Assembly: GCA_028288625.1 (NCBI GenBank)
Contig: JAQBNI010000068.1
Span: 1 to 42,868, forward strand
DNA from: Bacteroidota bacterium
Lineage (GTDB): Bacteria; Bacteroidota; Bacteroidia; Chitinophagales; JADIYW01
Length of the DNA: 42,868 nucleotides
Direction: 5' to 3'
Positions 474-31,775 of the stretch are shown one piece after another. The notes below the pieces were generated by a model. That model saw only the letters and a list, made by a program, of their open reading frames with translations, ran no database searches and was not told the origin of the DNA. A program made the position numbers and the translations under genes. How positions within the stretch are numbered: position 1 is the stretch's first letter; every line of letters begins with the position of its first letter.

Positions 474-6000
<5,527 letters not shown>

Positions 6001-6008
<8 letters not shown>

Positions 6009-6794: not shown

Positions 6795-8306
6795 ATGAAG
6801 ATCGATCAAGGGGGTACATCTGCGGCAACTGTCTTATTCCGAAACTACTGGAAACTTTCCGTTATGGAAGGCGTGTGCCTTTTATTGACGTCATACCTGC
6901 TGACAGTAAGGATAATGTATATATTTTCGTACAACACAGACATGGAAGGAGTTGAATTTGCGTCCATTCATTTTTTACAGCTTCTGAAACTTAAACATCA
7001 CATTTATTCTGATCCCGGAAAATTTCCATACTTGCTGGTGGTTTATGCGCCTTTGTACTATTATGTGATGCTTGGAGTAATTAATTTATTTTCGGTGGAT
7101 GTTTTAAATAACATACACTCCGTATATATTATTGGAAGAGTGATATCCTTCTTACTGTTGTTTCTCAACTTCTTTATTGTAAAAAAAATTGTTGAACAAT
7201 TCATTCCTGATTTCAGAAGCAAGATCTATCTCTTCTTATTTCTGCTTCTTCTTATTCCGCTGCATTTTTATACATTCCGTCCTGACAGCTTCAAAGTAAC
7301 TTCATTTGTCATATTCATTTATTATTTTTTAAAATTTGTACATACGAATGCTTTCAAATATTACCTGCTGTCATTTATTTTTCTCTACACAGGAATATTA
7401 TTTAAACAGGATGTTTTGATTTACGGGTTGATCACCTATCTCTTCTTTTATTTTGTTTATCGTAAAAAGATATATCTTTTTACAATTCCGGTATTGTTTA
7501 TTACACTTTTTATCACGGGTTTTTTATTATACAGTTCCGCAGGAATAGATCTTTACAAAGAACTGTTTGTTTATAATATCCAATATGACAGGGACCCTGC
7601 AATAAATATTAACACCATTATTATTTACTTAATGAGGGTAGCGCCCTTACTTTATCTCGCAGTTAAAAATTTATATTCCGAAAATAAACTTGTGCAAACG
7701 CTTGCGGGTATGTCTTTAGTGTATACTGCAGGCACTTTGGCGACCCTGATGAGAATGGGGGCAAACTTCAATTATACGTATGAAGCTTCGATATTATTAC
7801 TCATCAATGGCTTTATTTATTTTAAAGGAAAAATAACAAGAAAAAACGAATACCCTGTTCATGTTTATATTGTTTACGTGCTCATTTCCATTGCTCATTT
7901 CTACCCTTTAACTGTAAGTGCTGAACAGGAAAAAGTGTACAAGATCAGCTATTTTGACAACCTGCATTTATCAAATAAAATAAAGCCTATCTTAAAGAAT
8001 GACGTTGTATTTCTACCGCAAATGAAAAATTTTATTTTTTATCCTGAACAAAAACTGATCTATGGATATGACTGGCACTATGACAGGTATTGCGAGTTAA
8101 ATCTCAATATGCGGCTTCACCCGAAATTTGCCAGCAATGATGTTGTCGATCAATATGACGAAAACTTCAGGAATGGAAAGGTAAAATATATTTTGATTGA
8201 AGATAATGTGAAAGCAAAACCGCATATTGAAAAATATTATCCCGGCTTTGTGCTCGACCGACAAATTGAAAACTTTTTGTTGTACGTGTTTAAACCAACA
8301 AAATAA
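6795..8306 (+). CDS. GT-C-like polytopic membrane protein, paralogue 1
   Basis: A 503-residue membrane protein with roughly ten hydrophobic segments and a soluble C-terminal domain from about residue 375. It belongs to a family of four in this window. Shared motifs here: Y-N-T-D49-M-E-G-V-E54 in the first extracytoplasmic loop, H-x-Y-x-x-R162-P-D164-S, K204-Q-D206, N326-Y-T-Y-E330, G424-Y-D-W-H428-Y-D430-R431, and N-G-K-V-K-Y. An acidic residue in the first outer loop after TM1 is the hallmark of GT-C glycosyltransferases that use polyprenyl-phosphate sugars, so transfer of a sugar on the periplasmic side is the most likely activity; the substrate is unknown. It is the first gene of a four-gene operon, 3 nt before the next. 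Its N-terminus is a few residues longer than in the paralogues; an internal Met at residue 24 would remove part of TM1, so the ATG at 6795 is preferred. Confidence 0.82.
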   Translation: MKIDQGGTSAATVLFRNYWKLSVMEGVCLLLTSYLLTVRIMYIFSYNTDMEGVEFASIHFLQLLKLKHHIYSDPGKFPYLLVVYAPLYYYVMLGVINLFSVDVLNNIHSVYIIGRVISFLLLFLNFFIVKKIVEQFIPDFRSKIYLFLFLLLLIPLHFYTFRPDSFKVTSFVIFIYYFLKFVHTNAFKYYLLSFIFLYTGILFKQDVLIYGLITYLFFYFVYRKKIYLFTIPVLFITLFITGFLLYSSAGIDLYKELFVYNIQYDRDPAININTIIIYLMRVAPLLYLAVKNLYSENKLVQTLAGMSLVYTAGTLATLMRMGANFNYTYEASILLLINGFIYFKGKITRKNEYPVHVYIVYVLISIAHFYPLTVSAEQEKVYKISYFDNLHLSNKIKPILKNDVVFLPQMKNFIFYPEQKLIYGYDWHYDRYCELNLNMRLHPKFASNDVVDQYDENFRNGKVKYILIEDNVKAKPHIEKYYPGFVLDRQIENFLLYVFKPTK

Positions 8307-8309
8307 CCG

Positions 8310-9836
8310 ATGCTTTCTTTTATAACAAAATACAAAATTCATCTTCTTCCGATCTTATTATTTATTTCGATTTTACTGTATATCCGGTTTTTACTGGTGT
8401 TCAGTTATTCTGTTGACCTTGCAGGACTTGAATATTATTTTATAAATATTGTTCAGCGGATGAATACGCATCAGCCGCTATATCCCGATCTTCAGGCGTA
8501 TCCTTTTTACAATTGTTTATATACGCCGATTTATTTCTACCTGTTGAGTGCAATCGCATATGTAACCAGGCTGGATGTTTACAATGACATTCATAAGATA
8601 CTGGTGGTGGGCAGAATTTTTTCGCTCCTGATCGTATTCATTCAATTTATTTATTTAGCGAAACTGACGCGGAAGTTAACGGCTTCTTACACTGCACTGG
8701 TGATTGTTTTTGCAGTATTTATTAGTCTCTTAACGGGTCACGTTTACGCGGTACGACCGGATTCGTTAAAGCTGTTGTTATTTACCATGTTCATCTATTA
8801 CCTGCTCGAATATTTGTTTTATAATCCGAAACGGCTTAATGGAATACTTTGCATTTTCTGTGCTGTGTGCGCAGTTTATTCAAAACAGGATATATTTATT
8901 TATATCGTTTTGTGCCTGGCAATAGTTTTTCTTTTCTTACGAAACCGTAAGTCGCTACTGCTATTTTGCAGCTTTATTGCAGCTTGCATGGTTTGTTATG
9001 CTGTTATGCTGTTGGTATACGGGAAATATATTTTTCCGAACCTTTTCCTCCTCAATGTTCAGAAAATAACCAATGTCCTGAAATCTTATAATATCTCTTT
9101 TGTTTCATTCAGCATCGTCAGGACAGGACCGTTGCTCCTTCTAGCCTTTTTTAATTTAAAGAGACTGTGGCATACAGATAACAACTTCAGTCCATCCAAA
9201 TTTATCGCAGTCACATCCATTTTTTTTTACCCGTTAGCACACAGCTCGCTGATGAGAGCGGGTGCAAACCTCAATTATACTTATGAATTATCTTTTATCC
9301 TTGTACTGAATATCCCCATCTTTTTTTCTGTGTATGCTGCAAATATCGAACGTCATAAAATATTATCTGCCAGTATAGTTCCCATATACCTTATATTGCT
9401 GCTTATTGGAAACGTGTTTATCAAAAATTATTATTTCGATAAGGAAGAAGAAAAATTATATGCTGCAGAATATGCCTATTGCCTGAAAGAAAAAAATGAT
9501 ATCATGAAAATCACAGGACATGATCCGATCTTCTTTCCCAATAGTAAATATTCTATTTTCTACGGGCATGAAAATATTGTTAACGGACATGATATGCACC
9601 TCGACAGGTTTATTAATTTATATACACCGGTGTATATACAATCCCGGCTTCTATTTTTAAGTACGGATATTTATGATGCGGCTTTTACGAACGGAATGAT
9701 AAAATATATAGTAGTGCAGGATAACGAGAAATTTAAACTGCACGTACAACAATATTACCCGTATTATGCAATTTACAAAGGCGTAGGTCACTCTTTAATT
9801 TACAAGTTCAATAACAACAAACCAGTTAACCAGTAA
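8310..9836 (+). CDS. GT-C-like polytopic membrane protein, paralogue 2
   Basis: A 508-residue multi-pass protein of the same family as its upstream neighbour. TM1 is at about 10-32 and is followed directly by F-S-Y-S-V-D36-L-A-G-L-E41. The remaining family motifs are T-G-H-V-Y-A-V-R149-P-D151-S-L-K, S-K192-Q-D194, N322-Y-T-Y-E326 and G426-H-D428-M-H430-L-D432-R433, then N-G-M-I-K-Y near the C-terminus. Overall identity to the neighbours is clearly low, while these motifs are kept, so the copies look old and functionally distinct rather than a recent duplication. GT-C-type glycosyltransferase activity is inferred from topology and the acidic first loop. It is tightly packed between paralogues 1 and 3 (gaps of 3 and 8 nt), so the operon probably makes a set of related enzymes. 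Confidence 0.82.
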   Translation: MLSFITKYKIHLLPILLFISILLYIRFLLVFSYSVDLAGLEYYFINIVQRMNTHQPLYPDLQAYPFYNCLYTPIYFYLLSAIAYVTRLDVYNDIHKILVVGRIFSLLIVFIQFIYLAKLTRKLTASYTALVIVFAVFISLLTGHVYAVRPDSLKLLLFTMFIYYLLEYLFYNPKRLNGILCIFCAVCAVYSKQDIFIYIVLCLAIVFLFLRNRKSLLLFCSFIAACMVCYAVMLLVYGKYIFPNLFLLNVQKITNVLKSYNISFVSFSIVRTGPLLLLAFFNLKRLWHTDNNFSPSKFIAVTSIFFYPLAHSSLMRAGANLNYTYELSFILVLNIPIFFSVYAANIERHKILSASIVPIYLILLLIGNVFIKNYYFDKEEEKLYAAEYAYCLKEKNDIMKITGHDPIFFPNSKYSIFYGHENIVNGHDMHLDRFINLYTPVYIQSRLLFLSTDIYDAAFTNGMIKYIVVQDNEKFKLHVQQYYPYYAIYKGVGHSLIYKFNNNKPVNQ

Positions 9837-9844
9837 AAACTCTC

Positions 9845-11359
9845 ATGTTTCAATTTATCCGCAAATACCGATTGCACTTTATTTTCTTACTCTGCCTGAT
9901 TTCTTTTATGTTATATGAAAGATCAATACTGATCTTTTCATATTCAACGGATCTTGACGGCCTTGAATATATGTTTATCCATTACACACAAAATATCTTA
10001 TACCATAAAAAATTATACTGCAGCTCGAATGTTTATCCGTTCGACATTTGCGTGCACATGCCTTTGTACCCGTATACCATGTCTACCATATTCAGGTTCC
10101 TGCATTATATGGATCCGAATATCATGCTGAGAAAAGTGGAATGCATTTATAAGCACCTGATCATTTGCAGAATGCTGTCATTCGTATTTCTTTGGGTGTG
10201 CCTTTATTTCATAGTAAGAACGCTATGGCTTTTTAACAGGAACAAATTCATAACGTTTTTTACAGTGTGCTTCGCAATGCTTTTTTTGACCGGGCATTTT
10301 TATGCTGCCCGGCAGGATGCTATTAAAATGGCATTCTTTTTAATACTGGTATACAATTCAATCCGGTACCTGTCAGGAGGGAAAATAAAATTTCTTTTCC
10401 TGTCATTTATTTTTATAACGCTTTCCATTTCATGTAAACAAGACAGCGTTCTTTTTATCGGGCAATTCCTTCTTATTGCTTTGTTTGTTTTCAGATCAAA
10501 AAGAGGTTTGTTGTTAATGAGCGTTTACATTTTTTCCATATTACTTGTTTGTTTCATTTTCTGGAATACTTTCGGCAATGAATTTATTGACAATACGATA
10601 CTGATCAATTTCCAGATCAATAAATCGAACCTGGATAGTTATAATTTGCTCGCATGCATTTTCAGCGTCGGAAGGTCAATGCCTTTTTTAATTTTTTTAA
10701 CCTACTTATATATCCGGAACAAACAGATCGTAAAGCAAGATCCATCTTTATTTTTATTGATTATTTTTTGCTATACCAGTTACGTTACTGCTCACGTACT
10801 CATTTTCCGGGCGAGCTCTTATATTAATTACACACATGAAACAATGGCGTATATAGTGATCACGCTGGCTGCACTAACAAAATATGAAAAGAGAGATCAG
10901 TTGATCATCAGTTTTGCTTTTATTATGGGCATCCTTTTGTTGTATTCTGATAATATGATCCATGCCTACCCATTTTCAAATGCTAAAGAACAAGGCTATA
11001 AGAAAAATTATCTGGCGAACCTCCAACTTAAAAAAACACTCAACCCGATCATTGCAAATAACAAGACGTATTTTTTATCTTCTGAGCATACACTTTTCTA
11101 CCCTGATGAAGATCTTATTTATGGTTACGATCTGCACATTGACAGGTTTATGCATACCTACCTTGGCTTCACCACACAAGCCAGGATGTTATTTTTAAAC
11201 AGCCGGAAATACGACAGTTATTTTAAAAATGGAAGTATACAATATGTGATCATTGACGACAATAATCGTTCGGCTGAAATCATGAAAGAAAATTATCCGG
11301 AATACACGGTATATAAAAAGGTGGGAAACCTCGTGCTTTACCGTTATGGAAATATATAA
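9845..11359 (+). CDS. GT-C-like polytopic membrane protein, paralogue 3
   Basis: A 504-residue multi-pass protein, third member of the tandem family. Motifs: F-S-Y-S-T-D36-L-D-G-L-E41, L-T-G-H-F-Y-A-A-R156-Q-D158-A-I-K, C-K198-Q-D200, I-N328-Y-T-H-E332 and G427-Y-D429-L-H431-I-D433-R434. The second motif has Gln where the other copies have Pro, and the fourth has His where the others have Tyr, so these positions tolerate change, while R, D, K and E do not vary. It also carries about ten extra residues after the second membrane segment. The D36/E41 numbering is identical to paralogue 2, which supports both chosen starts. Its TAA stop shares one base with the ATG of the following gene, indicating translational coupling. 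Confidence 0.82.
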   Translation: MFQFIRKYRLHFIFLLCLISFMLYERSILIFSYSTDLDGLEYMFIHYTQNILYHKKLYCSSNVYPFDICVHMPLYPYTMSTIFRFLHYMDPNIMLRKVECIYKHLIICRMLSFVFLWVCLYFIVRTLWLFNRNKFITFFTVCFAMLFLTGHFYAARQDAIKMAFFLILVYNSIRYLSGGKIKFLFLSFIFITLSISCKQDSVLFIGQFLLIALFVFRSKRGLLLMSVYIFSILLVCFIFWNTFGNEFIDNTILINFQINKSNLDSYNLLACIFSVGRSMPFLIFLTYLYIRNKQIVKQDPSLFLLIIFCYTSYVTAHVLIFRASSYINYTHETMAYIVITLAALTKYEKRDQLIISFAFIMGILLLYSDNMIHAYPFSNAKEQGYKKNYLANLQLKKTLNPIIANNKTYFLSSEHTLFYPDEDLIYGYDLHIDRFMHTYLGFTTQARMLFLNSRKYDSYFKNGSIQYVIIDDNNRSAEIMKENYPEYTVYKKVGNLVLYRYGNI

Positions 11360-12966
11360 TGAATGAAATGAAGTACAGAAACTATATTCTGATCATTTGG
11401 CTACTTGCTTCAACAGTTGCCTGTTATTTTACATACACACGGTTTTACAACATTCACCGCGGTTGTGATATTACTTCGATGAACGACGAATGGGAACACC
11501 AGTCAATGGCGGTGAATTATGCAAAAGGATATGGTGTTTTTAAGCTCGGCGCATATACATCAATCCGGGAATACCATTTGGATACGTATGATTTTACGCT
11601 GCCTATTTTAAGAAAACTGATGATGAATCCGGTCGAATATTATCATCGCACCTGCGGATTTTCTGTCATTACAGGCACCTTGTACAGGTTAACAGGTACA
11701 TCACCGTTTAATCTCAGGGTCTTCAATTTTTTCCTGATCATATTGAGCTGGCTCATCATTTGTCTGGGCTTTTATGGCATTAAAAAAGAAATCTCTTTTT
11801 TCAGAATTCTCCTTGCTTTACTCCCTGTGTTTATATTGATAAACTTTAACTACATCGATTTAATCGGTGATGATACACTTGTCATCTTTTCGCTGTCGCT
11901 GGTATTTCTAAGTTTAGTCTTGTGGTTAAAAAAAGTTACACCGTTAACGACTTTTATCGTCCTGATCGCTTTACTTTTTTCGATCTTTATAAAATCCACA
12001 CTTTTATTTATTCCTGTATTTTTGTTGATCTTTTCAATCATCACCCGCAAGAAAAAATTTATCATTAGCGGATTCCTGATTAACCTCGTGTTTTTTCTGT
12101 TACTTATTATTTGTTCTGATAAAGTGAACGAAATGCACCTTGCCTATAAATACCCGCCAAGGAAACAACTCCACGACAACCTCATGAATTCGAAATGGAC
12201 GGCAGCCGATACCATGTTCGTTACAGAAAACCACATGCATTATAAAAATCCGATAAAATTTGACTTTGAAATTTACAAGACAGTGACATCCTTTTTATTT
12301 GAAAGACAATTTTATACAAAACGAAAATTTTTATTGTCGGGGCAAAGCTTGTATTTAATTATTGACGGCAACAATGAAGCATGTATGTCAAACGTTGAAA
12401 AACATATAGGCAGCTGGAAGCCTTTCTGGAAAATTAACACTGCGTCATACTATTATCATTATAACGGTGAAGGCTCAGCATATAAGGAAGTGATAAAATT
12501 CTACCTGCATAAGCCGTGGATATTCCCTTTTATTATGTTTAGAAAATTGTTTGCTTCTTACAACTGGAATTACTTGTTCCTGTTGCTGTCTGCGGTACAA
12601 TTTTATTTATGTTTATTATTTTACCGGCGTCCTGCCGGCGTAAAAAGCTTTATTTCATTGGGTGCAGCCAGCATTTTATTGCATGTAATATTGCACCTTG
12701 CATATTTAACTCCGCTAATCACCGTATTATTTTGTTATACTTTTTATTACATCAGGAAACAAATAATACTAAAGGACAAAGAAAGCCATATCTTCTTTTA
12801 CTTGCCCTATTTCTTTATATTTTATTTCATGTTTTTAACGCTTCTGGTCTTTGGATTGAACCGCTATACCTGCATTGCCAACGGAATGATGCTCGCATCC
12901 ATTTGCTTTAATATCATTCTAATTAAAAAAGAAATGAAAACTTATTTAATCGAAACGAGTTCGTAG
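11359..12966 (+). CDS. GT-C-like membrane glycosyltransferase candidate
   Basis: A 535-residue polytopic protein, last gene of the four-gene operon. After TM1 (about 8-28) the outer loop carries M-N-D43-E44-W-E46-H, an acidic pair typical of GT-C/ArnT-PMT-like enzymes (GT39/GT83 type), followed by Y-A-K-G-Y-G-V and, further on, Y-H-R-T-C-G-F-S-V-I-T-G. This is the loop layout of the PMT_2-like superfamily. A large soluble loop at about 255-380 contains several Trp and Tyr. It does not share the R-[PQ]-D-[SA] or G-x-[DE]-x-H-x-D-R motifs of the three preceding genes and is a separate family. Its 3' end overlaps the convergent gene by 25 nt. A likely role is transfer of a lipid-linked sugar in the periplasm; acceptor and donor cannot be told. 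Confidence 0.78.
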   Translation: MNEMKYRNYILIIWLLASTVACYFTYTRFYNIHRGCDITSMNDEWEHQSMAVNYAKGYGVFKLGAYTSIREYHLDTYDFTLPILRKLMMNPVEYYHRTCGFSVITGTLYRLTGTSPFNLRVFNFFLIILSWLIICLGFYGIKKEISFFRILLALLPVFILINFNYIDLIGDDTLVIFSLSLVFLSLVLWLKKVTPLTTFIVLIALLFSIFIKSTLLFIPVFLLIFSIITRKKKFIISGFLINLVFFLLLIICSDKVNEMHLAYKYPPRKQLHDNLMNSKWTAADTMFVTENHMHYKNPIKFDFEIYKTVTSFLFERQFYTKRKFLLSGQSLYLIIDGNNEACMSNVEKHIGSWKPFWKINTASYYYHYNGEGSAYKEVIKFYLHKPWIFPFIMFRKLFASYNWNYLFLLLSAVQFYLCLLFYRRPAGVKSFISLGAASILLHVILHLAYLTPLITVLFCYTFYYIRKQIILKDKESHIFFYLPYFFIFYFMFLTLLVFGLNRYTCIANGMMLASICFNIILIKKEMKTYLIETSS

Positions 12967-14651
12967 ATGTACAGATTGCCATCTGACTTGAGAAACTTAA
13001 AAACATTTGCAGAAGGGTCTTTCATGTTAAACAATAATCTTCCTTTTTTTAAATTACAGTCTGTTGCAATGCTATTTATAAATCCAGTGTCGACAGGTGA
13101 AGATATCAACAGCAGTCCGGGCTGCTGAACTTTTTTATTTTCTTTTAATAATTTTATTTCAGTTGAGAAAATGTCCGGCGCCTGTTCGTCCACATAACAG
13201 GAAAGCAAATACGGCTTTTGTTTACTGTCATATAACACATTGGAGTAGTCCATATTTATTACACTTGTGCTTTCCATACTATCCAATAAATGATTTACAC
13301 CGGAGAAATAATTATAAGAGGCTTTATCGACACAAATATTTTCTCCTGTATTTTTAAAATGATATAATTGATTTTGTGCGAATAGTGTTTTATTACTAAA
13401 CAGAAATGGATTGAGTAAATTAAAAAAGCAAAAATATATTGCTATCGCACAGCACAGGAAATAAATATACCTTTCCCGCTGAACATATAAGATCAATAAC
13501 AGCAATAGCAGGAATAAAAATGAGGGGTGCAAAATTACATTTATGAGTTGGAGGCTCATCGAGCCGAATAATATCAAAAAGAAAAAAATACTTGCCAATA
13601 AAATAACCAGCAATGAATTATCCCCGAAAAACATTTTGGCATATTTATCCTCTTTAAGAATTAATGAATACATAAACATCGCAAAACAGATGAACATCAC
13701 TGACGGTACCAAATAAAAGAACGCATAAGATAACTTATTTGCGGTTAGAGAGATCAGTAAAAGGAATTGAATAAAGCCAATGATGACGATAAATTTCCTC
13801 CATGTTATTCCGCTAATTGTGTTCCTTATAAACAATAGCCTGCCCTTATTATAAAAATATAACACTACGCTTATCGCCAGGAATGCAACTACATCAATGG
13901 CGTAAACCGGGAAATCTCCCACAAAAAAAATCTTACGCAAAATGATAATACCATGTTTCCAATTTGAAAAGTTGATATAAAAATATTTTATGTAATAAAT
14001 CACTGCGAGATACAATAAAAGAAAGAATATAAATGTGAGCATTAATTTATAAAGAATGCGAAGGCGGGAAAACCTGAATAGCACAATGACAAATATTGCA
14101 ACAGCAAAAATTCCAAATGAAAGTTTTATTCCGGATAAAAAAAATGTTGCGACAACATATAAAAGTGTGATCAGCAGCATCGGGAAAAAACTAATTTCTT
14201 TTTCAATCACCAGCAGCAATAAAAGCAAACACCATATGGAGAAACAATCCATCAAATCGTTATAGTGCAAGGAACGGTAAAAAACATTCATCAGGAACCC
14301 GGAAAACAAGCAATACACAATCAATAATACCGTGAAAGAAGATAAAGTATATTTTTTCTTCAATATCGGTATCAATATGATTACAGTAAGCAAAAAAGTA
14401 AAGAGTGTGAGGATCAATTTTGAATACCGGAATGAAAGAATGGAAAATTTATGGAAGAAGAAAAAGACAATGATCTTCAGCATATTCAGAAAATCGAATG
14501 TAATCAATTCAGGCTGGTATCGAATCTGGGTAAGGATGGTAAATTCATCTGTATTTGCAGCACCTTTATCTACTGAAAAAAAAGTGATCCCCAGCTGAAA
14601 AAGCATCAGTAAACATATTCCAGCGCCGATGTATCTTTCTTTATTCTTCAT
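12942..14651 (-). CDS. Polytopic membrane protein with GT-C-like acidic first loop
   Basis: A 569-residue protein with about eleven or twelve hydrophobic segments and a C-terminal soluble part (about 430-569). Just after TM1 (about 7-26) lies A-A-N-T-D35-E36-F, an acidic pair where GT-C enzymes keep their catalytic acid, and S-L-H-Y-N-D-L-M-D occurs near residue 126. This makes a GT-C-type glycosyltransferase the best guess, though overall it is not like the operon on the other strand and I recognise no family. Its last 25 nt are antisense to the end of that operon. It has its own well-formed promoter only 13 nt before the start codon. The window around its stop shows no terminator. Confidence 0.72.
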   Translation of the reverse strand: MKNKERYIGAGICLLMLFQLGITFFSVDKGAANTDEFTILTQIRYQPELITFDFLNMLKIIVFFFFHKFSILSFRYSKLILTLFTFLLTVIILIPILKKKYTLSSFTVLLIVYCLFSGFLMNVFYRSLHYNDLMDCFSIWCLLLLLLVIEKEISFFPMLLITLLYVVATFFLSGIKLSFGIFAVAIFVIVLFRFSRLRILYKLMLTFIFFLLLYLAVIYYIKYFYINFSNWKHGIIILRKIFFVGDFPVYAIDVVAFLAISVVLYFYNKGRLLFIRNTISGITWRKFIVIIGFIQFLLLISLTANKLSYAFFYLVPSVMFICFAMFMYSLILKEDKYAKMFFGDNSLLVILLASIFFFLILFGSMSLQLINVILHPSFLFLLLLLLILYVQRERYIYFLCCAIAIYFCFFNLLNPFLFSNKTLFAQNQLYHFKNTGENICVDKASYNYFSGVNHLLDSMESTSVINMDYSNVLYDSKQKPYLLSCYVDEQAPDIFSTEIKLLKENKKVQQPGLLLISSPVDTGFINSIATDCNLKKGRLLFNMKDPSANVFKFLKSDGNLYIYELVSIK

Positions 14652-14664
14652 CCGGAATCTTATG

Positions 14665-14693
14665 CAAAACTATTTTTGGCAGAAACCAACAAA
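14665..14693 (-). promoter_or_regulatory. Bacteroidota-type promoter, short leader
   Basis: On the minus strand TTTG (14690-14693), a 17-nt spacer and a full TAGTTTTG (14665-14672). The ATG of the membrane protein at 14651 follows after 13 nt, which leaves room for only a very short untranslated leader. Confidence 0.65.
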
Positions 14694-14754
14694 CCTAATG
14701 AAATGAAACGGACTATCCAATTATCTGAAGATGTGATGAGGTAAATAACCATCA

Positions 14755-15969
14755 TTATTCAGGGCGTGTTTTCCACCACCAGGATGGTGGTTTCCTCGTT
14801 CCAAATCCTAATGCATCGTCGAGATATAAAGCAATTTTCTTTGCAGGCGAAAATGCCAGCCATTTGAAAAACCTGAAATACAAACGATCGGAAACCGTTT
14901 TATTACTTTTATTATACGGACAAACACGCATACATATTCCGCATTCAGTGCCCTGGTTCGCCCAGATATTAAAGCATTTTTCGCCATCCACCGTCCATTT
15001 TTTTATGCCTTTAGCATTGGATTTGTTTAATACCGTATCACTGGGTTCTTCAAAAGAAATTGCTTTTGCCGGACATGCATCTGCACACTTCCTGCAAATA
15101 TCACAAAACTCTTTTACACCAAAATTAACCGGTTGATCATGTGTCAGCGGCAGGTTTGTAAATATTTTACCGAAGCGAACCCGGGGACCAAATTCTTTTG
15201 TAATTGCCAAGCCGTTCCTTCCGTATTCCGCTAATCCCGATTGTATAGCATATGGAATAGCCTGTGCAGAATCATTTAATGATGCTACAGCTTCATACCC
15301 CATATTCCTGATAAATTGTGCCAGCGTCTGTAGAATAAATACATCTTTAGAATATCCGAAACCCGGCGCAACTCCTGCTAACGCTGAAGGATAAGTTCTT
15401 ATTACTTCATAAGGCATTGCAGTGCCGAGTACAATGCAATGAGTTAAATCATCAGGAAGTTCATTTGGCTTATCTGTTTTTGTATCCGCATCATAGCGAT
15501 GAGCATAATGCCATCTCCTATCTACATGCGTAATTCCGACGAGGTCAGCACCAAACATTTTAGCCGCCTGTTTAATTTCCGCTGACATTTCTGCAGCAGA
15601 TTCAATATTCACCTTTGTACGTGAAGGTTCAAGGTATGCTGTGATATCATCCAGGAAACCATCCCTTCTTTGCAAATGCTGAGTGCGTTCCATTGCTAAA
15701 TTCGCGAAGGTCCATCCTGCATTGCGCAACGCAAAATCTTTTTGTGTATATCCGTCCGTACTTTTGAAAGCAAGATTATTTGTGATCATAGATTTAAACC
15801 AATCTATTGCCTTCTTTGACTTCACCGTATTGTCCCATTGTGAACGGCAAAACATTTCATCGCGCTGGTTGAATCGTTCAAATTCCTTTGTTATTTCAAA
15901 GTGATTGACAGCAGGAGTTGCCTCTTTCTTTTTAAGGATAATATTTTCGTTGACGGGCGGAAAGTCCAT
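14755..15969 (-). CDS. Reductive-dehalogenase-like (RdhA-family) Fe-S protein
   Basis: A 404-residue cytoplasmic protein. The core at about 225-300 (G-Y-E-A-V-A-S-L-N-D, Y-A-I-Q-S-G-L-A-E-Y-G-R-N-G-L, G-P-R-V-R-F-G-K-I-F-T-N-L-P-L) is the cobalamin-binding segment of RdhA and epoxyqueuosine-reductase relatives. It is followed by two 4Fe-4S ligand sets: C289-x2-C292-x2-C295-x3-C299-P and C343-x2-C346-x3-C350-P. Family knowledge predicts a corrinoid enzyme carrying out reductive chemistry on an organic substrate, classically removal of halogen. There is no twin-arginine signal at the N-terminus and no small RdhB-like membrane anchor next to it, so it is not a standard respiratory RdhA. It also lacks the C-terminal ferredoxin-reductase domain of the catabolic NpRdhA type. 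QueG is less likely because its C-terminal HEAT-like region is missing. It may share a transcript with the acyl-CoA ligase upstream (60-nt gap with a weak hairpin). Confidence 0.82.
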   Translation of the reverse strand: MDFPPVNENIILKKKEATPAVNHFEITKEFERFNQRDEMFCRSQWDNTVKSKKAIDWFKSMITNNLAFKSTDGYTQKDFALRNAGWTFANLAMERTQHLQRRDGFLDDITAYLEPSRTKVNIESAAEMSAEIKQAAKMFGADLVGITHVDRRWHYAHRYDADTKTDKPNELPDDLTHCIVLGTAMPYEVIRTYPSALAGVAPGFGYSKDVFILQTLAQFIRNMGYEAVASLNDSAQAIPYAIQSGLAEYGRNGLAITKEFGPRVRFGKIFTNLPLTHDQPVNFGVKEFCDICRKCADACPAKAISFEEPSDTVLNKSNAKGIKKWTVDGEKCFNIWANQGTECGICMRVCPYNKSNKTVSDRLYFRFFKWLAFSPAKKIALYLDDALGFGTRKPPSWWWKTRPE

Positions 15970-15980
15970 AATTAAATTTA

Positions 15981-16006
15981 CAAATAAAAGAGCAATTAAC
16001 GGCTCC
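15981..16006 (-). terminator. Possible weak terminator or attenuator between ligase and RdhA-like gene
   Basis: Read on the minus strand, GGAGC and GCTCT form a five-pair stem (one G-T) around an eight-base loop and are followed by TTTTATTT. The stem is short, so partial read-through is likely. Confidence 0.35.
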
Positions 16007-16029
16007 TCACTAATTTTATAAAATTATTT

Positions 16030-17568: not shown

Positions 17569-17572
17569 ACTT

Positions 17573-18463: not shown

Positions 18464-18507
18464 TCTTACAGCTAATTAATGCTACCCGTTTATTTTTATT
18501 TCGAGCC

Positions 18508-19506: not shown

Positions 19507-19518
19507 ACCATAAAATAA

Positions 19519-22200: not shown

Positions 22201-22201
22201 G

Positions 22202-22876: not shown

Positions 22877-22885
22877 CTCTTTATT

Positions 22886-22914
22886 AAAAACTAACCTGAC
22901 TGAAGATCATTCAA
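22886..22914 (-). promoter_or_regulatory. Bacteroidota-type promoter for the AspH-like gene
   Basis: On the minus strand TTG (22912-22914), an 18-nt spacer and TAGTTTTT (22886-22893), one base from the TAnnTTTG consensus. The ATG at 22876 follows after 9 nt. Confidence 0.55.
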
Positions 22915-23036
22915 TGAAATGAAAAAATTAAATTCATGAATCAAATTACACCGTAAAAACCCGGGCAAAAAATTAGGGAAATTTTAGGAGAAATTTGTTA
23001 AATACTTATATCTTTATAAAACATCCCCAAAGCTTT

Positions 23037-24548
23037 ATGGCTAAACTACTTTTTATACAGGATATTGCCTATGAATACATGGGGGTGATGCATATCAGCT
23101 CGTACTTAAAAAAACATAACCACGATTGCGAGGTTTTCATTGAATCATTAGAAAAAGACCTGTTTTCCAAGATCGCAAGTTACGAACCTGACTTGATTGG
23201 TTTTTCCACTTTATCGGGAAGCTTTAAATGGGCGCTGAATTTATCCATTAAGATAAAGGAACGATTTAAAGATATTCCTATTGCTTTTGGCGGCGTACAT
23301 GTTTACTCTAATCCTTCTGCCGTCATCAAGTGTGATTCGATTGATATTATTTGCACGGGTGAAGGAGAAATTGCTCTGAAAGAATTATGCGATTCGCTGG
23401 ATCTGGGTTATATCAACAAACAAATTGAAGGATTATGGTTTAAAAATGATACGGAGATCGTAAAAAATCCAATGTCAAAATTAATCGACGATCTTGACAG
23501 CTTACCTTTTCCTGACCGCCAGATCTACTGGAAATATTCAAGTATAGAATCCAGGAATACACTACCAATTTTGGGCAGCAGGGGTTGTCCATACACTTGT
23601 GCTTATTGCTTTATTCCAAAAGCAAAAGAAATTTTTGACGGACTCGGCAAATTCGTACGTCAACGCAGCCCGGAAAATATCATGGAAGAGCTTGAGCATT
23701 GTGTAAGCATGTCTCCGAAAAAAACAGTGGTGCATTTTGTAGAAGATCATTTCGGAAATAACAGGACACGCACCTTGCAGGTACTTAAAAAATTATCTTC
23801 TATTGAGCCTAGAATGAACTGGTCAGGCGCAATCCGAATTGAAAGATTTATAGAAGAAAAATATGTGGCTGAGTTAAGTAAAACAAATCACTCAACACTA
23901 GGGTTAGCCGTTGAGTGCGGGAATGAAGAATACAGGAATACTGTTTTACACAGGGAAGTAAAAAACGAAGAGATCATTAAAGCCGCTGACCTGGCGACAA
24001 AATATGGCATAAGGTACATTACCATGAATATGATTGGTCTTCCCGGAGAAACATTTGACATGGCGATGGAAACACTTGAAATGAATATCAGGCTGAAACC
24101 TGAATATGCAAACTGTTATGTTTACCAGCCATACGCCGAAACTAAATTGAAAGATTACGGCGTTGAACATAAATATTATACGGAAAGCGTGGCTGATGAA
24201 CTTGGATTTTCTTTTTATGACCGGTATAATAATGATGATGTTGAACTGCAAAAAGTAATTAATTTACAACGCGTTTTTGGACTTGTCGTTGCTTTCCCCC
24301 GCCTTAAAAAACCAATGGTTTGGCTTACTAAGAGAAGATGGACCAATAAACTACTGGACGGTGTGTTCGGGATCTATTACCTGTATTATTTGATCAAATT
24401 CTATAATATTACCACGAAGCAATTGGTACAGTATATGCAGCTTTGGATACAAAGCCAGTATATAAAAAAGAAGAACCCGGTTTCTGAAACAATTGCACAG
24501 GGGAAGGCGCAGTTTTACACGCATAAGACAGCCAGTAAAGCCAGTTAA
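23037..24548 (+). CDS. Radical SAM protein with N-terminal B12-binding-like domain
   Basis: A 503-residue class B-type radical SAM protein. The N-terminal Rossmann-like domain (about 1-125) has the cobalamin-binding-domain layout (Y-M-G-V-M-H-I-S-S-Y-L-K, P-D-L-I-G-F-S-T, I-P-I-A-F-G-G-V-H, I-C-T-G-E-G-E) but no D-x-H-x-x-G, as in the BchE/HpnP/P-methylase-like subgroup. The SAM-cleaving cluster site is G-C184-P-Y-T-C188-A-Y-C191. The radical SAM barrel follows (V-E-C-G-N-E near 297-302, M-I-G-L-P-G-E-T-F), and the last 90 residues are hydrophobic and Trp/Tyr-rich. Such enzymes typically methylate or rearrange unreactive carbons in lipids, antibiotics or pigments; the substrate is unknown. 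I prefer the ATG at 23037 over an upstream TTG at 22995 because it starts right before the first strand. Its stop overlaps that of the WecE-like gene by 4 nt. Confidence 0.88.
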   Translation: MAKLLFIQDIAYEYMGVMHISSYLKKHNHDCEVFIESLEKDLFSKIASYEPDLIGFSTLSGSFKWALNLSIKIKERFKDIPIAFGGVHVYSNPSAVIKCDSIDIICTGEGEIALKELCDSLDLGYINKQIEGLWFKNDTEIVKNPMSKLIDDLDSLPFPDRQIYWKYSSIESRNTLPILGSRGCPYTCAYCFIPKAKEIFDGLGKFVRQRSPENIMEELEHCVSMSPKKTVVHFVEDHFGNNRTRTLQVLKKLSSIEPRMNWSGAIRIERFIEEKYVAELSKTNHSTLGLAVECGNEEYRNTVLHREVKNEEIIKAADLATKYGIRYITMNMIGLPGETFDMAMETLEMNIRLKPEYANCYVYQPYAETKLKDYGVEHKYYTESVADELGFSFYDRYNNDDVELQKVINLQRVFGLVVAFPRLKKPMVWLTKRRWTNKLLDGVFGIYYLYYLIKFYNITTKQLVQYMQLWIQSQYIKKKNPVSETIAQGKAQFYTHKTASKAS

Positions 24549-25636
24549 TTTTTCCCGAAGAATTCGAACAAGGCATTAATAACTTTGTCCTGCACATCCT
24601 TCGTTAAATTCTGGGAAAGGGGCAACCGCAGCAACTTATCGCTTTCGGAAGTTGTATAATCATTATCTGAATAATATTGATATTGGCTTCCCAACTTTGA
24701 GCTGTGCAGCGGCGTAAAATGCGGAGTAGCTTCCAAGCCGAGCGATTTAAAATAAGCAATCAGTTGATTTCTTTTTTCCGTCTTGATGTAAAAGATATGC
24801 GCGTTACCTTCCGTGATGAATGGCAATTCAATCAGCATTTTTTCTTCAAGAGATTTAAGCTGTTTATAATAGAAAGACCATTCCGCTTTTCTCTTTTTTT
24901 GCATCGAATCTGATTCGATCAATTGATTATACAATAAACCAAAATTAACCGACGGCATAGTGAAATTTGATCCAAGACTGCACCATTCATAATAAGGTGC
25001 AATGCCCTGCTGAAAAGCCGTACGATTTGTTCCATTGTGATACGCCATATCTGCTTTATCCAGCAGATCCGGGTTATTCACGATGAGTACTCCGCCCTGT
25101 TCACACTGAATATTTTTCTGGTAATCAAAACTGATGCAGCCAATATCTCCTATTGTCCCCAAATGATTTCCTTCGTGATAAGAAAAAATACATTGCGCTG
25201 CGTCTTCAATAATATATATGCCATGCTTCCGTGCAATTTTAATTATTGCAGTCATGTTACACGCATTACCCGCATAATGTACCGGGACAATTGCTTTTGT
25301 TTTATCAGAAATACATCTTTCCAGCAATGCGCTATCCATACACATCGTTAACGGATCAATATCTACAAACACAATCTTCGCGCCCAATTTTGCAAATGCA
25401 TTAGCGGTTCCCACAAAAGTAAAGCTGGGAATAATTACTTCATCACCTTCTTTTATACCTATGGTCAATGCCGCTAATTCCAATGCTGTTGTGCATGATG
25501 TAGTGAAATAAATATCCCGGTTTAACAGTTCCCTGAAATATGCTACCGTACGGTTTTTTATTTCCGGCAGCGTATTCTCATTTTTATTATGGAAACCTTC
25601 AACATTTAAAACAGGCAACGCTTGCAGTATCGACAT
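24545..25636 (-). CDS. wecE: WecE-like sugar aminotransferase (DegT/DnrJ/EryC1/StrS family)
   Basis: A 363-residue PLP enzyme. Much of it resembles WecE (RffA), which makes dTDP-4-amino-4,6-dideoxygalactose from the 4-keto sugar and glutamate: T-S-C-T-T-A-L-E near 46-53, G-D-E-V-I-I-P-S-F-T-F-V near 64-75, V-P-V-H-Y-A-G-N-A-C, E-D-A-A-Q at 144-148, G-T-N-R near 218, and L-L-R-L-P-L near the end. The PLP lysine is K174 in S-F-D-Y-Q-K-N. Two things are odd: the usual glycine-rich S-G-x-x-x-G-G-G-x-F-T segment at the N-terminus is missing, and the segment after the lysine reads C-E-Q-G-G instead of G-E-G-G. The sugar used may therefore differ from that of WecE. A WecD-like acetyltransferase at 18508 is a natural partner. 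It is encoded alone on this strand. Confidence 0.82.
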   Translation of the reverse strand: MSILQALPVLNVEGFHNKNENTLPEIKNRTVAYFRELLNRDIYFTTSCTTALELAALTIGIKEGDEVIIPSFTFVGTANAFAKLGAKIVFVDIDPLTMCMDSALLERCISDKTKAIVPVHYAGNACNMTAIIKIARKHGIYIIEDAAQCIFSYHEGNHLGTIGDIGCISFDYQKNIQCEQGGVLIVNNPDLLDKADMAYHNGTNRTAFQQGIAPYYEWCSLGSNFTMPSVNFGLLYNQLIESDSMQKKRKAEWSFYYKQLKSLEEKMLIELPFITEGNAHIFYIKTEKRNQLIAYFKSLGLEATPHFTPLHSSKLGSQYQYYSDNDYTTSESDKLLRLPLSQNLTKDVQDKVINALFEFFGKN

Positions 25637-25653
25637 TCAATTAATTTTTTTTT

Positions 25654-25680
25654 GGAAAGTAAGCAATTTCTATATAGCAA
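25654..25680 (-). promoter_or_regulatory. Candidate promoter for the WecE-like gene
   Basis: On the minus strand TTG (25678-25680), a 16-nt spacer and TACTTTCC (25654-25661), two bases from consensus at the end. The ATG at 25636 is 17 nt downstream. Confidence 0.4.
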
Positions 25681-25771
25681 TTTATACAGAATTACCTATA
25701 AAATTATAAAAAAAAACCGACAGTACAATGGCGATTTCTTTGAAATATAAGAGCATATGAAAGATAAATTA

Positions 25772-25802
25772 TTTTTTATGTTTCAGATTTTCCTTACTTT
25801 TG
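25772..25802 (+). promoter_or_regulatory. Bacteroidota-type promoter for the PhyH-GT2 unit
   Basis: TTTT (25772-25775), a 19-nt spacer and a full TACTTTTG (25795-25802), followed after 21 nt by the ATG at 25824. The -33 element is imperfect (TTTT for TTTG). Confidence 0.55.
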
Positions 25803-25823
25803 ATTGCAAACCATTTCATAAAT

Positions 25824-26627
25824 ATGTCATCAGTTTTTTCACCGGATAAAATTTCGGAATCCTTAGATTTTTATAACAGGAATGGTTATGTTGCCATCAA
25901 AAGTTCTTTTTCGGATGAATACCTTTCCCACATCCGTGAAATCATGATCGATTTGATCGAAGTGGAAAAAAAAGAGATCAACGATGAAAATTACAGGGAC
26001 TATGGTTTTTTATTGTGCGCGCCGCATTATGCGGATAAGCATCCTGAAATTTTAGATGTTTTTAATAACAAGGAGTTGCTTGATTTTGTGCATGACGTCC
26101 TCGACAAATGGTTCATCGTTTATTTATATTCCAATAATTGCATCCCACCGCACGGCGGAAATACAAAGGCATATAAGCCGCATGTAGATACTCCGCGTTA
26201 TATTCCGAATTACCATCAATCTATTGTAGTGATGATCACGCTGGATGAATACACGGAAGAAAATGGTGCCACCTGGGTGCTGCCGGCTTCGCAAAGTATT
26301 GTAGAAAAACCTACGGATGAGCATTTTTACAACAGTGCGCAACGGCTTGTTGTTCCCAAGGGAACGTTGTGTTTTTTTGATCCGAAAGTATGGCATGCGG
26401 CAGGCACAAATTTTTCAAAGGACTGGCGTGCATGTTTGCTCATCGTATTTTGCAGACCATGGATGAAACAAAGAGTGGATATTCCTCGATTTATGTCGCA
26501 CATTGAAAAGGATACGCTTCCGAAACATATACAACAACTCCTGGGTTTCAATTCCGCTCCTCCTGCAAACTTCAACGAATTTTACGGAGACGAACACGAA
26601 CGGACATTTACGCAACCTTTTGTTTAA
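25824..26627 (+). CDS. Phytanoyl-CoA dioxygenase (PhyH) family protein
   Basis: A 267-residue non-haem iron, 2-oxoglutarate-dependent oxygenase. The facial triad is seen as H120-V-D122 in K-P-H-V-D-T-P-R and H191 in D-P-K-V-W-H-A-A-G, with R202 placed to bind 2-oxoglutarate. F-Y-N-R-N-G-Y-V near 16-23 is the typical PhyH opening helix and strand. Members hydroxylate fatty acyl chains, natural products or sugars. I chose the ATG at 25824; an earlier TTG at 25800 lies inside the -7 promoter element. It is followed after 24 nt by a GT2 gene, so the two are likely cotranscribed, and a role in decorating the lipid or sugar handled by that enzyme is plausible. It should be cytoplasmic since no signal peptide is visible. 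Confidence 0.86.
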   Translation: MSSVFSPDKISESLDFYNRNGYVAIKSSFSDEYLSHIREIMIDLIEVEKKEINDENYRDYGFLLCAPHYADKHPEILDVFNNKELLDFVHDVLDKWFIVYLYSNNCIPPHGGNTKAYKPHVDTPRYIPNYHQSIVVMITLDEYTEENGATWVLPASQSIVEKPTDEHFYNSAQRLVVPKGTLCFFDPKVWHAAGTNFSKDWRACLLIVFCRPWMKQRVDIPRFMSHIEKDTLPKHIQQLLGFNSAPPANFNEFYGDEHERTFTQPFV

Positions 26628-26651
26628 ATTGCATTATTCAAAAAACTGGTC

Positions 26652-27530
26652 ATGGAATTGTCAGTTGTAATACCTATTTATCATACCGCTACAAATGCTG
26701 TTCGCAGCATACCTGAAGTGATCCCTGCTTTGCAAAGCAAATTCAATGATTTTGAAATTATTTTCGTGATAGATAACGATGGTGTTCCTGATGAAGTAAA
26801 AGCTCTTTTCACTCTCCAGGATATTTACAAGCAAGTAAAGATATATCGCCTGAATAAAAACCATGGTCAGCATTTCGCTACTTTAACCGGATATTATTTT
26901 GCCAAAGGCGACCATATATTAAGTATTGATGAGGACATGACGCAATATGTTACAAAGATCTGCAGAAATAATGACTATATGCAGCACGATATCTATTACT
27001 GGCATTACAACAAAAACAACATGTATAATTCTGTTATACGGAAAATACTCAGCATACTTTTTAAAGCAGCTATCCACAAGCTCATCAACTTTAAAAAGAA
27101 TTCAACATTCCGTGTAATGACAAAAGAGCTTCGGGATAAAATGATGCTGGATAAACATATTTTCTGGAACATCGATGTGATGATCTTCAATAACACGGCT
27201 CATGTTGGCGGCTGTGTTTTAGAACTTTCCGATATTAACGATCACGATTCCGGGTATAACTATAAAACGCTTGCAAACGTTGCATTCGAGATCGCTTATG
27301 AGCACAATCTCATTTTCATGAATTTATTATTCGCGGTATTTCCAGCGCTTGCAGTACATCTTGTATTTCAAAACATGACGGTAACTGCTATCACCTATTT
27401 CGTGATAGTTATATTGATCACATTATTTTTTACGGGAGTTAAAAAGCTTACGCCATCAACCGGAAACAAAATCCTTGCGGCTATTTATGTGGAAAAGGAC
27501 AGGAAATCATTTAAACCTGTATCTGAATAA
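26652..27530 (+). CDS. GT2 family glycosyltransferase with shortened catalytic loop
   Basis: A 292-residue GT-A enzyme with two C-terminal membrane segments (about 222-263). L-S-V-V-I-P-I-Y at 3-10, I-I-F-V-I-D-N-D near 36-43, N-H-G-Q-H-F-A-T-L-T-G near 70-80 and the metal site I-D93-E-D95-M are in place. Compared with the GT2 at 17573, the stretch after the metal site is short: the helix that normally follows (P-x-x-I-x-x-L-x-x-x-I) is replaced by Y-V-T-K-I-C-R-N-N-D. This may mean a changed sugar specificity or a partly degraded enzyme. The reading frame is intact. It resembles polyprenyl-phosphate sugar synthases and would supply a lipid-linked sugar. The last 24 nt are antisense to the end of the convergent GT2 gene. 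Confidence 0.8.
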   Translation: MELSVVIPIYHTATNAVRSIPEVIPALQSKFNDFEIIFVIDNDGVPDEVKALFTLQDIYKQVKIYRLNKNHGQHFATLTGYYFAKGDHILSIDEDMTQYVTKICRNNDYMQHDIYYWHYNKNNMYNSVIRKILSILFKAAIHKLINFKKNSTFRVMTKELRDKMMLDKHIFWNIDVMIFNNTAHVGGCVLELSDINDHDSGYNYKTLANVAFEIAYEHNLIFMNLLFAVFPALAVHLVFQNMTVTAITYFVIVILITLFFTGVKKLTPSTGNKILAAIYVEKDRKSFKPVSE

Positions 27531-28232
27531 ATTATAGATAAATTCCCACACGGTTTTTAAATCTACAAAACTGGTCTTTCTTTCATTCTTATAAAACACC
27601 GTGGAGATCTCACATATTCGCAGCTTATGTTGAAGCGCCTGTATCATGATCTCGGCATCTGTAAACCAATCATTAGAACGCAGCTGCATGCGGCGGTATG
27701 CTTCGCTGGTAAATATTTTAGGTTTTGAATTCACGTCGCGGATCGGGAAATCCGGGAAATAAAGGAAGCGAAATAATATATTGTAAACTGAAGACAAACA
27801 ACTCCTGATAAAACCATCATAGCGTTTCGCGCGGTAAGTTTTTACAAGATCATGCTTACCCAGCCTGATCACTTTATAAACGATCGGGATATCGCTTGCC
27901 GGCATTTGCGCATCACCATCGATCACAGCAATATATTTTCCTCTTGCAACCGATAAGCCGGAGCGCATATCCCACCCCATACCGCCTTCTTTTTCATTTG
28001 CCATCACCTTGATATTGCTGTGCTTTTCCGCCAGCGCATGAGCCAGTTCAGGCGTTTTCTCACTTGAATTCTTATCGTAATTTGCAACGAGGATCAATTC
28101 GGAAACCACGTTAAGGTCTCTCACTTCATTGAGCAATTGCTCCACGAAATTTTCAATAATATTAGCTGAATTATAGCATAATACTACGACAGAAAGTTCT
28201 ATATCATTATTTGTGTTGATGTCCTCTTGCAA
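27507..28232 (-). CDS. GT2 family glycosyltransferase, DPM1-like, TTG start
   Basis: A 241-residue soluble GT-A enzyme resembling dolichol-phosphate mannosyltransferase: L-S-V-V-V-L-C-Y-N near 13-21, E-L-I-L-V-A-N near 45-51, G-G-M-G-W-D-M-R-S-G-L near 83-93, the metal site V-I-D105-G-D107-A-Q-M, and the later D-V-N-S-K-P-K-I-F segment seen in polyprenol-phosphate sugar synthases. It has no C-terminal membrane helices, unlike the other two GT2 enzymes here. The first in-frame initiator is TTG at 28232 and no ATG occurs before the catalytic fold. A consensus promoter ends just 5 nt upstream, so translation probably starts at or within a few bases of the 5' end of the mRNA. A role in loading sugar onto polyprenyl phosphate for the neighbouring GT-C proteins is inferred. 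Confidence 0.83.
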   Translation of the reverse strand: MQEDINTNNDIELSVVVLCYNSANIIENFVEQLLNEVRDLNVVSELILVANYDKNSSEKTPELAHALAEKHSNIKVMANEKEGGMGWDMRSGLSVARGKYIAVIDGDAQMPASDIPIVYKVIRLGKHDLVKTYRAKRYDGFIRSCLSSVYNILFRFLYFPDFPIRDVNSKPKIFTSEAYRRMQLRSNDWFTDAEIMIQALQHKLRICEISTVFYKNERKTSFVDLKTVWEFIYNLFRYRFK

Positions 28233-28237
28233 TTGAT

Positions 28238-28268
28238 CAAAAATACGTTTAAATCGTAAATCCTCAAA
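28238..28268 (-). promoter_or_regulatory. Consensus Bacteroidota promoter almost abutting a TTG start
   Basis: On the minus strand TTTG (28265-28268), a 19-nt spacer and TATTTTTG (28238-28245): a full match to TTTG-N19-TAnnTTTG. The TTG start codon of the GT2 gene begins 5 nt past the -7 element. Confidence 0.75.
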
Positions 28269-28272
28269 AATA

Positions 28273-28303
28273 TTTAAGGGAATTGAAAAAAGTAGTATTT
28301 TAG
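28273..28303 (+). promoter_or_regulatory. Divergent promoter for GT-C-like paralogue 4
   Basis: TTTA (28273-28276), a 19-nt spacer and TATTTTAG (28296-28303). It is interleaved with the opposing promoter region at 28238-28268. An open frame in phase with paralogue 4 begins directly after it at 28304. Confidence 0.5.
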
Positions 28304-28393
28304 GAAATCATTCTCCGCAAAACGCAAACCGCTATAAATACTTCGTTTAAATACCGCGCATTATTTTTTACATTTTCTGTCCTGGTCGCATAT

Positions 28394-29821
28394 ATGTTGT
28401 TTGTGAGGTTCTGCCTTATTTTTTCTTATAATATTGACCTTGATGGCGCGGAATTTACCTTCGTGCATTATATACAGCAAATGCTCAGCGGGAAGCCATT
28501 GTATCTCAATCCGGAGAGCTATCCATTTTCCGCTGTCATCTATACACCGCTTTATTTGCACCTGGTTTACTGGACCTGCAAATTCTGTGACATCGACTAT
28601 ATATATAATATCCGTGGAATATACTTCCTGGGAAGGTGTATCAGTTTTTTCTTTGTTTTTATCGGGATATTTTTTCTCGATAAATTCGTCCAAAAGAAAT
28701 CGCGCGATCCGCTGGCGCGCCTTGCGGTTGCGTGCCTGTTCATGATCATGCTGACCGGTCATGCTTATGTACTGCGACCGGACAGCGCGAAGATTGCATT
28801 TTTTATCGCTTTTCTTTTTTACCACATAGAATATTTTTATTACACCAACAACAAAAAACACCTGGCTTTCTCCCTGTTATTCGCTGTGCTGTCGATCAGT
28901 GCAAAACAAGATGCAATCATTTATATTTTACTTGTACAGGCAGTAAATATTTTCGTTATTAAAAACACCACAGCTCTAAAAGTGCTGTTGTTGTTTATCA
29001 CGACCTTCACCTTATTGTTTTTATCCTTTCAACTGGTTTTTGGAAATTATTGCCTGGTCAATTTATTTCCATTTAACCTGCAGATCAATACAGATTTCAA
29101 AGACTCTTACAACCTGGTGGTATTGATTGTAAACGGAGTGAGAATAATGCCGTTTTACCTGTTCATTATCTTTAATCTTGTAAAATACAGGAATGAAAAC
29201 TCCTCACCTGCTAAAATGCTGATGATAACTGCGATCATTGCAGGCTTAACGTCTACATTCTTTTTATTACGTCCCGGAAGTTATCTGAATTATACTTATG
29301 AGTTTGTAGTGCTCTTATTATTTTGTATGGTGATGATATTATCTGAACGGAAGTTTTCCAAAACCACTTTCAGGTTGGGATTTTTATACATCCTGTTTTT
29401 CTTCTTTAGTAACATCAGCATAAAAAATTATTTCTTATATCCTCCAAAAGAAAAAATTTATACGAAGGATTATAAGCATTATTATTTACTAAGAGATGAG
29501 TTGTTGCCGCTGTTAAATAATAATGAGAAAATATACTGTCCACACCTGGATTTAACCTTATTTGTTCCGGATAAGAATGTGATTTACGGGCAGGAATACC
29601 ATCTTGACCGATTAATATATACGCATCTCGGGCTGAAGAGCAAATCCAGGCTCGCATTAAATTCCAGCGCTCACTATGATGAGTATTTTGTAAACGGGGA
29701 AGTGAAATACATCATAGGCTTTGATAACGAAGAAGTGAAAAACCTGGTTTCCAAAACATACCCGCATTATAAACTCAACAGGAAAATCGACCGCTTTTTG
29801 CTGTATGAATATACGCGGTAA
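28394..29821 (+). CDS. GT-C-like polytopic membrane protein, paralogue 4 (true start probably upstream)
   Basis: From the first ATG the protein has 475 residues and carries all family motifs: F-S-Y-N-I-D15-L-D-G-A-E20, L-T-G-H-A-Y-V-L-R127-P-D129-S-A-K, A-K170-Q-D172, N-Y-T-Y-E, G-Q-E-Y-H-L-D-R and N-G-E-V-K-Y. Starting there removes most of TM1. The frame stays open upstream to 28304 and encodes F-K-Y-R-A-L-F-F-T-F-S-V-L-V-A-Y, which lines up with K-Y-K/K-Y-R plus TM1 in paralogues 2 and 3. No ATG, GTG or TTG occurs in that 90-nt extension; the candidates are ATC 28307, ATT 28310 or ATA 28334. Either a rare start codon is used or the 5' end has been lost and a shortened protein is made. Function is inferred as for the other copies. 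It stands 17 kb from the tandem trio and ends 2 nt from the convergent TMTC-like gene. Confidence 0.8.
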   Translation: MLFVRFCLIFSYNIDLDGAEFTFVHYIQQMLSGKPLYLNPESYPFSAVIYTPLYLHLVYWTCKFCDIDYIYNIRGIYFLGRCISFFFVFIGIFFLDKFVQKKSRDPLARLAVACLFMIMLTGHAYVLRPDSAKIAFFIAFLFYHIEYFYYTNNKKHLAFSLLFAVLSISAKQDAIIYILLVQAVNIFVIKNTTALKVLLLFITTFTLLFLSFQLVFGNYCLVNLFPFNLQINTDFKDSYNLVVLIVNGVRIMPFYLFIIFNLVKYRNENSSPAKMLMITAIIAGLTSTFFLLRPGSYLNYTYEFVVLLLFCMVMILSERKFSKTTFRLGFLYILFFFFSNISIKNYFLYPPKEKIYTKDYKHYYLLRDELLPLLNNNEKIYCPHLDLTLFVPDKNVIYGQEYHLDRLIYTHLGLKSKSRLALNSSAHYDEYFVNGEVKYIIGFDNEEVKNLVSKTYPHYKLNRKIDRFLLYEYTR

Positions 29822-31749: not shown

Positions 31750-31767
31750 GAGAAAGTATTTGAAGAA

Positions 31768-31775
31768 CAAATATA
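31768..31775 (-). promoter_or_regulatory. -7 element of the TMTC-like gene
   Basis: TATATTTG on the minus strand, a full TAnnTTTG match, 18 nt before the ATG at 31749. No good -33 element stands at the expected distance. Confidence 0.45.

Follow-up and report, generated by a model that had tools for sequence, protein, structure and literature searches.

Genes at the locus

The window analysed in the present study is the whole stretch of 42,868 nucleotides, in which four open reading frames were confirmed on the forward strand at 6795-8306 (503 aa), 8310-9836 (508 aa), 9845-11359 (504 aa) and 28394-29821 (475 aa), each encoding a putative GT-C-like enzyme. The first-pass annotation had described these genes as a family of four, three in tandem and one distant, with six shared motifs, and the reading frames, motif positions and homology were all confirmed. 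Each of the four proteins contained all six motifs, in matching positions (6924-6956, 7263-7295, 7404-7412, 7770-7784, 8064-8087 and 8172-8189 in the first gene; 8400-8432, 8739-8771, 8883-8891, 9273-9287, 9585-9608 and 9690-9707 in the second; 9935-9967, 10295-10327, 10436-10444, 10826-10840, 11123-11146 and 11228-11245 in the third; 28421-28453, 28760-28792, 28904-28912, 29288-29302, 29588-29611 and 29693-29710 in the fourth). When all six frames of the window were translated, the KQD pattern occurred nine times, and each of the other five patterns occurred exactly four times, always inside the four genes. Pairwise BLASTP comparisons of the four proteins revealed 92-99% coverage, 26-32% identity and E values of 3e-38 to 6e-65 (effective search space 1e8), demonstrating homology rather than chance similarity; the paralogs differ at 68-74% of positions. 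No further copy beyond these four was detected when the rest of the genome was searched.

The three tandem genes are separated by 3 and 8 bases and are followed, with a 1-base overlap, by the gene at 11359-12966 (forward strand). This gene encodes a 535-aa membrane protein with NDE in the first loop and is conserved in two other genomes; its product is possibly a further GT-C enzyme, but comparing its profile with those of ArnT-like proteins gave no significant match, and a model built from three sequences was poor (pLDDT 43). The gene at 12942-14651 on the reverse strand encodes a 569-aa membrane protein without a Pfam match, 28% identical to the product of a gene at the same place in one relative (L040); with its acidic TDE in the first loop it is perhaps another GT-C, although its profile comparison with ArnT-like proteins was weak. 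Elsewhere in the window, the reverse strand encodes a 404-aa protein (14755-15969) matching the reductive dehalogenase model TIGR02486 with 195.8 bits against an NCBIfam cut-off of 160.35 bits, encoded in a stretch that the same locus lacks in relatives, and an 1844-aa protein (474-6008) carrying a C-terminal sorting domain for type IX secretion. The start of the 28394 gene is uncertain, because homology begins approximately 15-19 codons upstream of the first ATG (homologous frame from about 28310-28349), in an open frame that extends back to a TAG at 28301 and contains no ATG, GTG or TTG; a rare start codon and a shortened first helix are the alternatives offered for the frame at 28301-28394.

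Predicted fold and membrane topology

The 8310 protein was modelled with AlphaFold2 from 20 sequences (pLDDT 88.2, pTM 0.90), and the best PDB matches of the model were OST subunits, ArnT (5EZM/5F15), PMT, AftA, ALG and PglB. The alignment with ArnT 5EZM comprised 432 residues spanning residues 9-503, with an rmsd of 6.0 and a Z of 23.2, which exceeds the range stated by the tool for chance matches between helical proteins. The predicted structure comprises a multi-TM domain with juxtamembrane helices in the first external loop (EL1), like the solved GT-CA enzymes, and no Wzy/WaaL-type (GT-CB) entry was observed among the structure matches listed. In addition, K+R made up 22-68% in five of the six inner loops, compared with 3-14% in the outer loops, KQD itself excepted, which agrees with a predicted topology having the N-terminus inside. 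Within the membrane part, 16 polar residues are highly conserved, and every one of them is located on the outer half as assigned from the helices of the model (p 9e-4). The model comparison proposed in the first-pass annotation returned a GT-C fold with these conserved polar residues on the outward side.

The appearance of OST and PglB near ArnT in the fold comparison, together with a sub-cut-off EpsG match of the 28394 protein (E 0.044), might suggest that some or all copies are non-catalytic or transfer whole oligosaccharides as a polymerase or ligase of the Wzy/EpsG or PglB type. We consider this very unlikely: the alignment with ArnT takes in almost the whole protein and also its C-terminal domain, no copy in the window has lost the motif acids or the lysine, and the adjacent GT2 belongs to the monosaccharide-phosphate type.

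Motif residues and relation to named families

Profile searches of the PDB sequences using either the four-protein or the broad alignment gave no match up to E 10, and ArnT-like proteins from the same order were therefore used as an intermediate step towards ArnT. In profile-profile comparisons with these proteins (hhalign), the broader family scored a probability of 97.3% (E 2.1e-11) and the genus family alone 89.4% (E 2e-6), and the ArnT-like profile in turn matched ArnT 5EZM with an E value of 1.1e-38 (HMMER). D151 of the RPD motif was placed on the Asp of VRTD and K192 of the KQD motif on K189 of the ArnT-like protein, and HMMER aligned these two residues of the ArnT-like protein with D158 and K203 of ArnT (PDB numbers taken as the sequence position minus 3). 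D151 and K192, the equivalents of Asp158 and Lys203, are invariant. However, the phosphate-binding Lys of ArnT, K85, aligns with Tyr71 of the family, and in a second, differing alignment of the loop the residue is also non-basic.

The motifs of GT-C and PMT enzymes have been described as acids (DD) in EL1, RxD in EL2, K plus an acid in EL3, a motif in EL4 and R..Y in EL5, of which DD, RxD, K and R/Y have been assigned to donor, acceptor and phosphate contacts (PMC7801869). The first four motifs of the first-pass annotation are located at these published places. RPD, KQD and NYxxE not only occupy GT-C motif positions, but are also kept wholly or partly by wider relatives, and are therefore largely features of the superfamily; the EL5 correspondence is based on loop position and residue type, because the hhalign match stops short of EL5. 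E41 was observed in 20 of 20 genus members, with D or E in all broad relatives having a residue there, and in the 8310 model it forms the tip of JM1, at the start of a helix. Some members of the wider family lack D36, which hhalign offsets by two residues from the invariant Asp of ArnT-like proteins, and whether D36 or E41 would be the exact EL1 base is uncertain from these alignments. In the C-terminal motif, the first acid, D428, is general and HxDR is specific to the genus; as judged from the alignments, HxDR, N249/Q251 and the invariant D194 mark the subfamily.

No family member exceeded a curated Pfam or NCBIfam cut-off. The matches below the cut-offs were mainly to PMT_2 (PF13231), which ranked first in Pfam for the family as well as for most of the broad relatives, with single matches to EpsG, SecE and Agl23; the proteins of the window reached at most 20.4 bits against the PMT_2 gathering cut-off of 26.1 bits, and one relative (L055) passed it with 30.9 bits. 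Non-glycosyltransferase families, against which a profile check had been proposed, likewise gave no match above these cut-offs, and literature searches yielded no paper naming the family. The earlier statement that this is no named family thus holds at the Pfam and NCBIfam cut-offs, but the motifs are mostly not private, as they occupy GT-C/PMT positions and occur in a wider bacterial family. In other words, the enzyme class is well known, and the subfamily is new and unnamed. The proposed GT-C class with an acid in the first outer loop is supported by the fold of the 8310 model, the conservation of E41 and the profile link to ArnT. Taken together, the four proteins are most likely lipid-linked-sugar glycosyltransferases of the GT-C (GT-CA) class acting at the outer side of the inner membrane, as predicted from sequence and model.

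Distribution and ortholog groups

Profile searches detected the family in one uncultured genus of the Chitinophagales, where six of eight genomes carry it, mostly in 3-5 copies; another 92 genomes from the family and order gave no match of comparable strength. Matching public contigs are titled as uncultured Chitinophagales, Sphingobacteriales and Bacteroidetes MAGs, and a cultured representative was not found. When 295 genomes sampled from the class were searched with the broader profile, 14 further genomes gave a match, and these wider relatives are scattered. In a tree of 33 proteins, the genus family was separated from the wider relatives with a support of 100/100 and fell into four ortholog groups: A, with the 28394 protein, found in all six genomes that have the family; B, with the 8310 protein; C, with the 6795 protein; and D, missing from the genome studied here. 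The 9845 protein formed a long unplaced branch and has no clear ortholog in the sampled genomes. The recurrence of ortholog groups across genomes indicates that the duplications are older than most of the sampled species. The group B copy of one genome (G003, L037:442-1965) is split into two open reading frames, reflecting a frameshift or an assembly error.

A conserved locus and a genome without its GT-C genes

In five relatives, the locus consists of GT-C copies, PhyH, GNAT, two GT2 genes, the group A GT-C, a TMTC-like gene, a 31885-type gene and a uracil-DNA glycosylase, some of the views being limited by contig breaks and small differences. In the genome studied here, approximately 13 kb between 12942 and 25700 are occupied by other genes, followed by a PhyH-type dioxygenase (25800-26627, forward), a GT2 (26652-27530, forward), a second GT2 (27507-28232, reverse), the group A gene and a TMTC-like TPR membrane protein (29824-31770, reverse). 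The 27507 GT2 resembles dolichol-phosphate mannose synthase and is the candidate maker of a polyprenyl-phosphate-sugar donor: it matched 5MLZ over residues 10-238 (E 1.3e-7), with the whole catalytic domain covered and its DGDxQ motif (DGDAQ) placed on DADLQ.

Within the genus, the 27507-type GT2 was observed in exactly the six of eight genomes that carry the family, a co-occurrence resting on eight genomes. Genome G005 (L117, C8:86000-105500) has kept both flanks, GNAT, the 26652-type GT2 and the TMTC-like gene, and lacks every GT-C copy, the 27507-type GT2 and PhyH. This joint absence suggests that the GT-C genes, the 27507 GT2 and PhyH constitute one functional module, lost in G005 or gained elsewhere. 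Outside the genus, the distant relative L043, from another family of the order, directly adjoins a 53%-identical GT2, and a GT2 was found within two genes in seven of 13 broad relatives. Known three-component systems also have a donor synthase next to a GT-C enzyme (PMC11127046). The 27507-type GT2 can also serve other enzymes, since G012 and G023 carry it with no family member nearby. We propose that the four paralogs probably share the one donor-making enzyme encoded beside them.

Two other explanations bear on this locus. First, the paralogs might use different lipid-linked donors, each made by one GT2 of the window, and extend one glycan by a series of different sugars. There are three GT2 genes in the window (17573, 26652 and 27507), the first two of which could make other donors, the 26652 type is likewise conserved in relatives, and the paralogs are strongly diverged. 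However, the 27507-type GT2 was the only one found to match the presence pattern of the GT-C genes; the 26652 type persists in G005 without them, the 17573 gene was not found at the locus in relatives, and the donor-side motifs are the most constant part of the proteins. This explanation is therefore possible, but rather doubtful. Second, the TMTC-like protein might start a protein-linked O-glycan that the four GT-Cs extend in the periplasm. Group A adjoins the TMTC-like gene wherever both are on a contig, and in Bacteroidota O-glycosylation the OTase and core-glycan machinery are unidentified and the process resembles O-mannosylation (PMC12871550). Nevertheless, G005 has retained the TMTC-like protein although it lacks both the GT-Cs and the donor GT2, and proteins of this kind are frequent among relatives that do not have the family. 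Moreover, the family is confined to one genus and therefore cannot be phylum-wide core O-glycosylation machinery. We thus regard an O-glycan role as unlikely. A direct profile comparison of the 29824 protein with the family was not significant. The genome studied here (G000) contains seven TMTC-like matches to this protein, on contigs C46, C48, C107, C124, C128 and C155.

Proposed pathway and known systems

Herein, we propose that the four genes encode paralogous GT-CA transferases that draw on one polyprenyl-phosphate-sugar donor from the 27507 GT2 and serve different acceptors, and we hold this model with considerable confidence. First, the soluble GT2 at 27507-28232 would attach a sugar to polyprenyl phosphate at the cytoplasmic face. 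Second, a flippase, of which none was recognised in the locus, would turn the lipid-linked sugar across the membrane. Third, on the periplasmic side, each GT-C copy would move the sugar either to an acceptor of its own or to another position of one glycan, presumably by inversion as in other GT-C enzymes. In the 8310 protein, the general base might be provided by the first outer loop (D36 and E41), the sugar and phosphate might be bound by RPD in loop 2 and KQD in loop 3, and the donor phosphate by R316/NYxxE in loop 5. For the C-terminal periplasmic domain with HxDR, acceptor binding appears more likely. Different acceptors or successive sugars for each paralog would be consistent with constant ortholog groups sharing one donor-synthase-like gene. 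A more far-reaching reading, namely an unclassified genus-specific GT-C family in which one donor feeds four transferases building a periplasmic glycan stepwise, as in ALG3/9/12 or the mycobacterial arabinosyltransferases, and HxDR forms a new acceptor or metal site, seems improbable to us.

Among known systems, the ArnT-like GT-C enzymes (GT83; 5EZM/5F15) share with the family the fold over nearly the full length, a small C-terminal periplasmic domain and, at aligned positions, the acids of EL1, the Asp of EL2 and the Lys of EL3. Despite these similarities, identity is approximately 10%, no basic residue is located at the K85 position, the named ArnT model is not matched, and the family has its own C-terminal HxDR. 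The TMTC/PMT O-mannosyltransferases share the layout of M1 (EL1 acids), M3 (RxD), M4 (K plus acid) and M7 (R..Y) (PMC7801869), but the family has no TPR or MIR domain and no HK motif in EL1. Three-component periplasmic glycosylation (GtrA/GtrB/Gtr; C. youngae O1, PMC11127046) likewise places a donor-synthase-like gene beside a GT-C gene; here, in contrast, there are 3-5 GT-C paralogs per donor-synthase-like gene, PhyH belongs to the module and no flippase gene was seen.

The results obtained herein divide the motifs of the first-pass annotation into general GT-C features and markers of the subfamily (HxDR, N249/Q251 and the invariant D194). Moreover, the locus, together with a congeneric genome lacking the whole module, offers a compact natural case for how GT-C paralogs, perhaps sharing one donor, divide acceptors among themselves.
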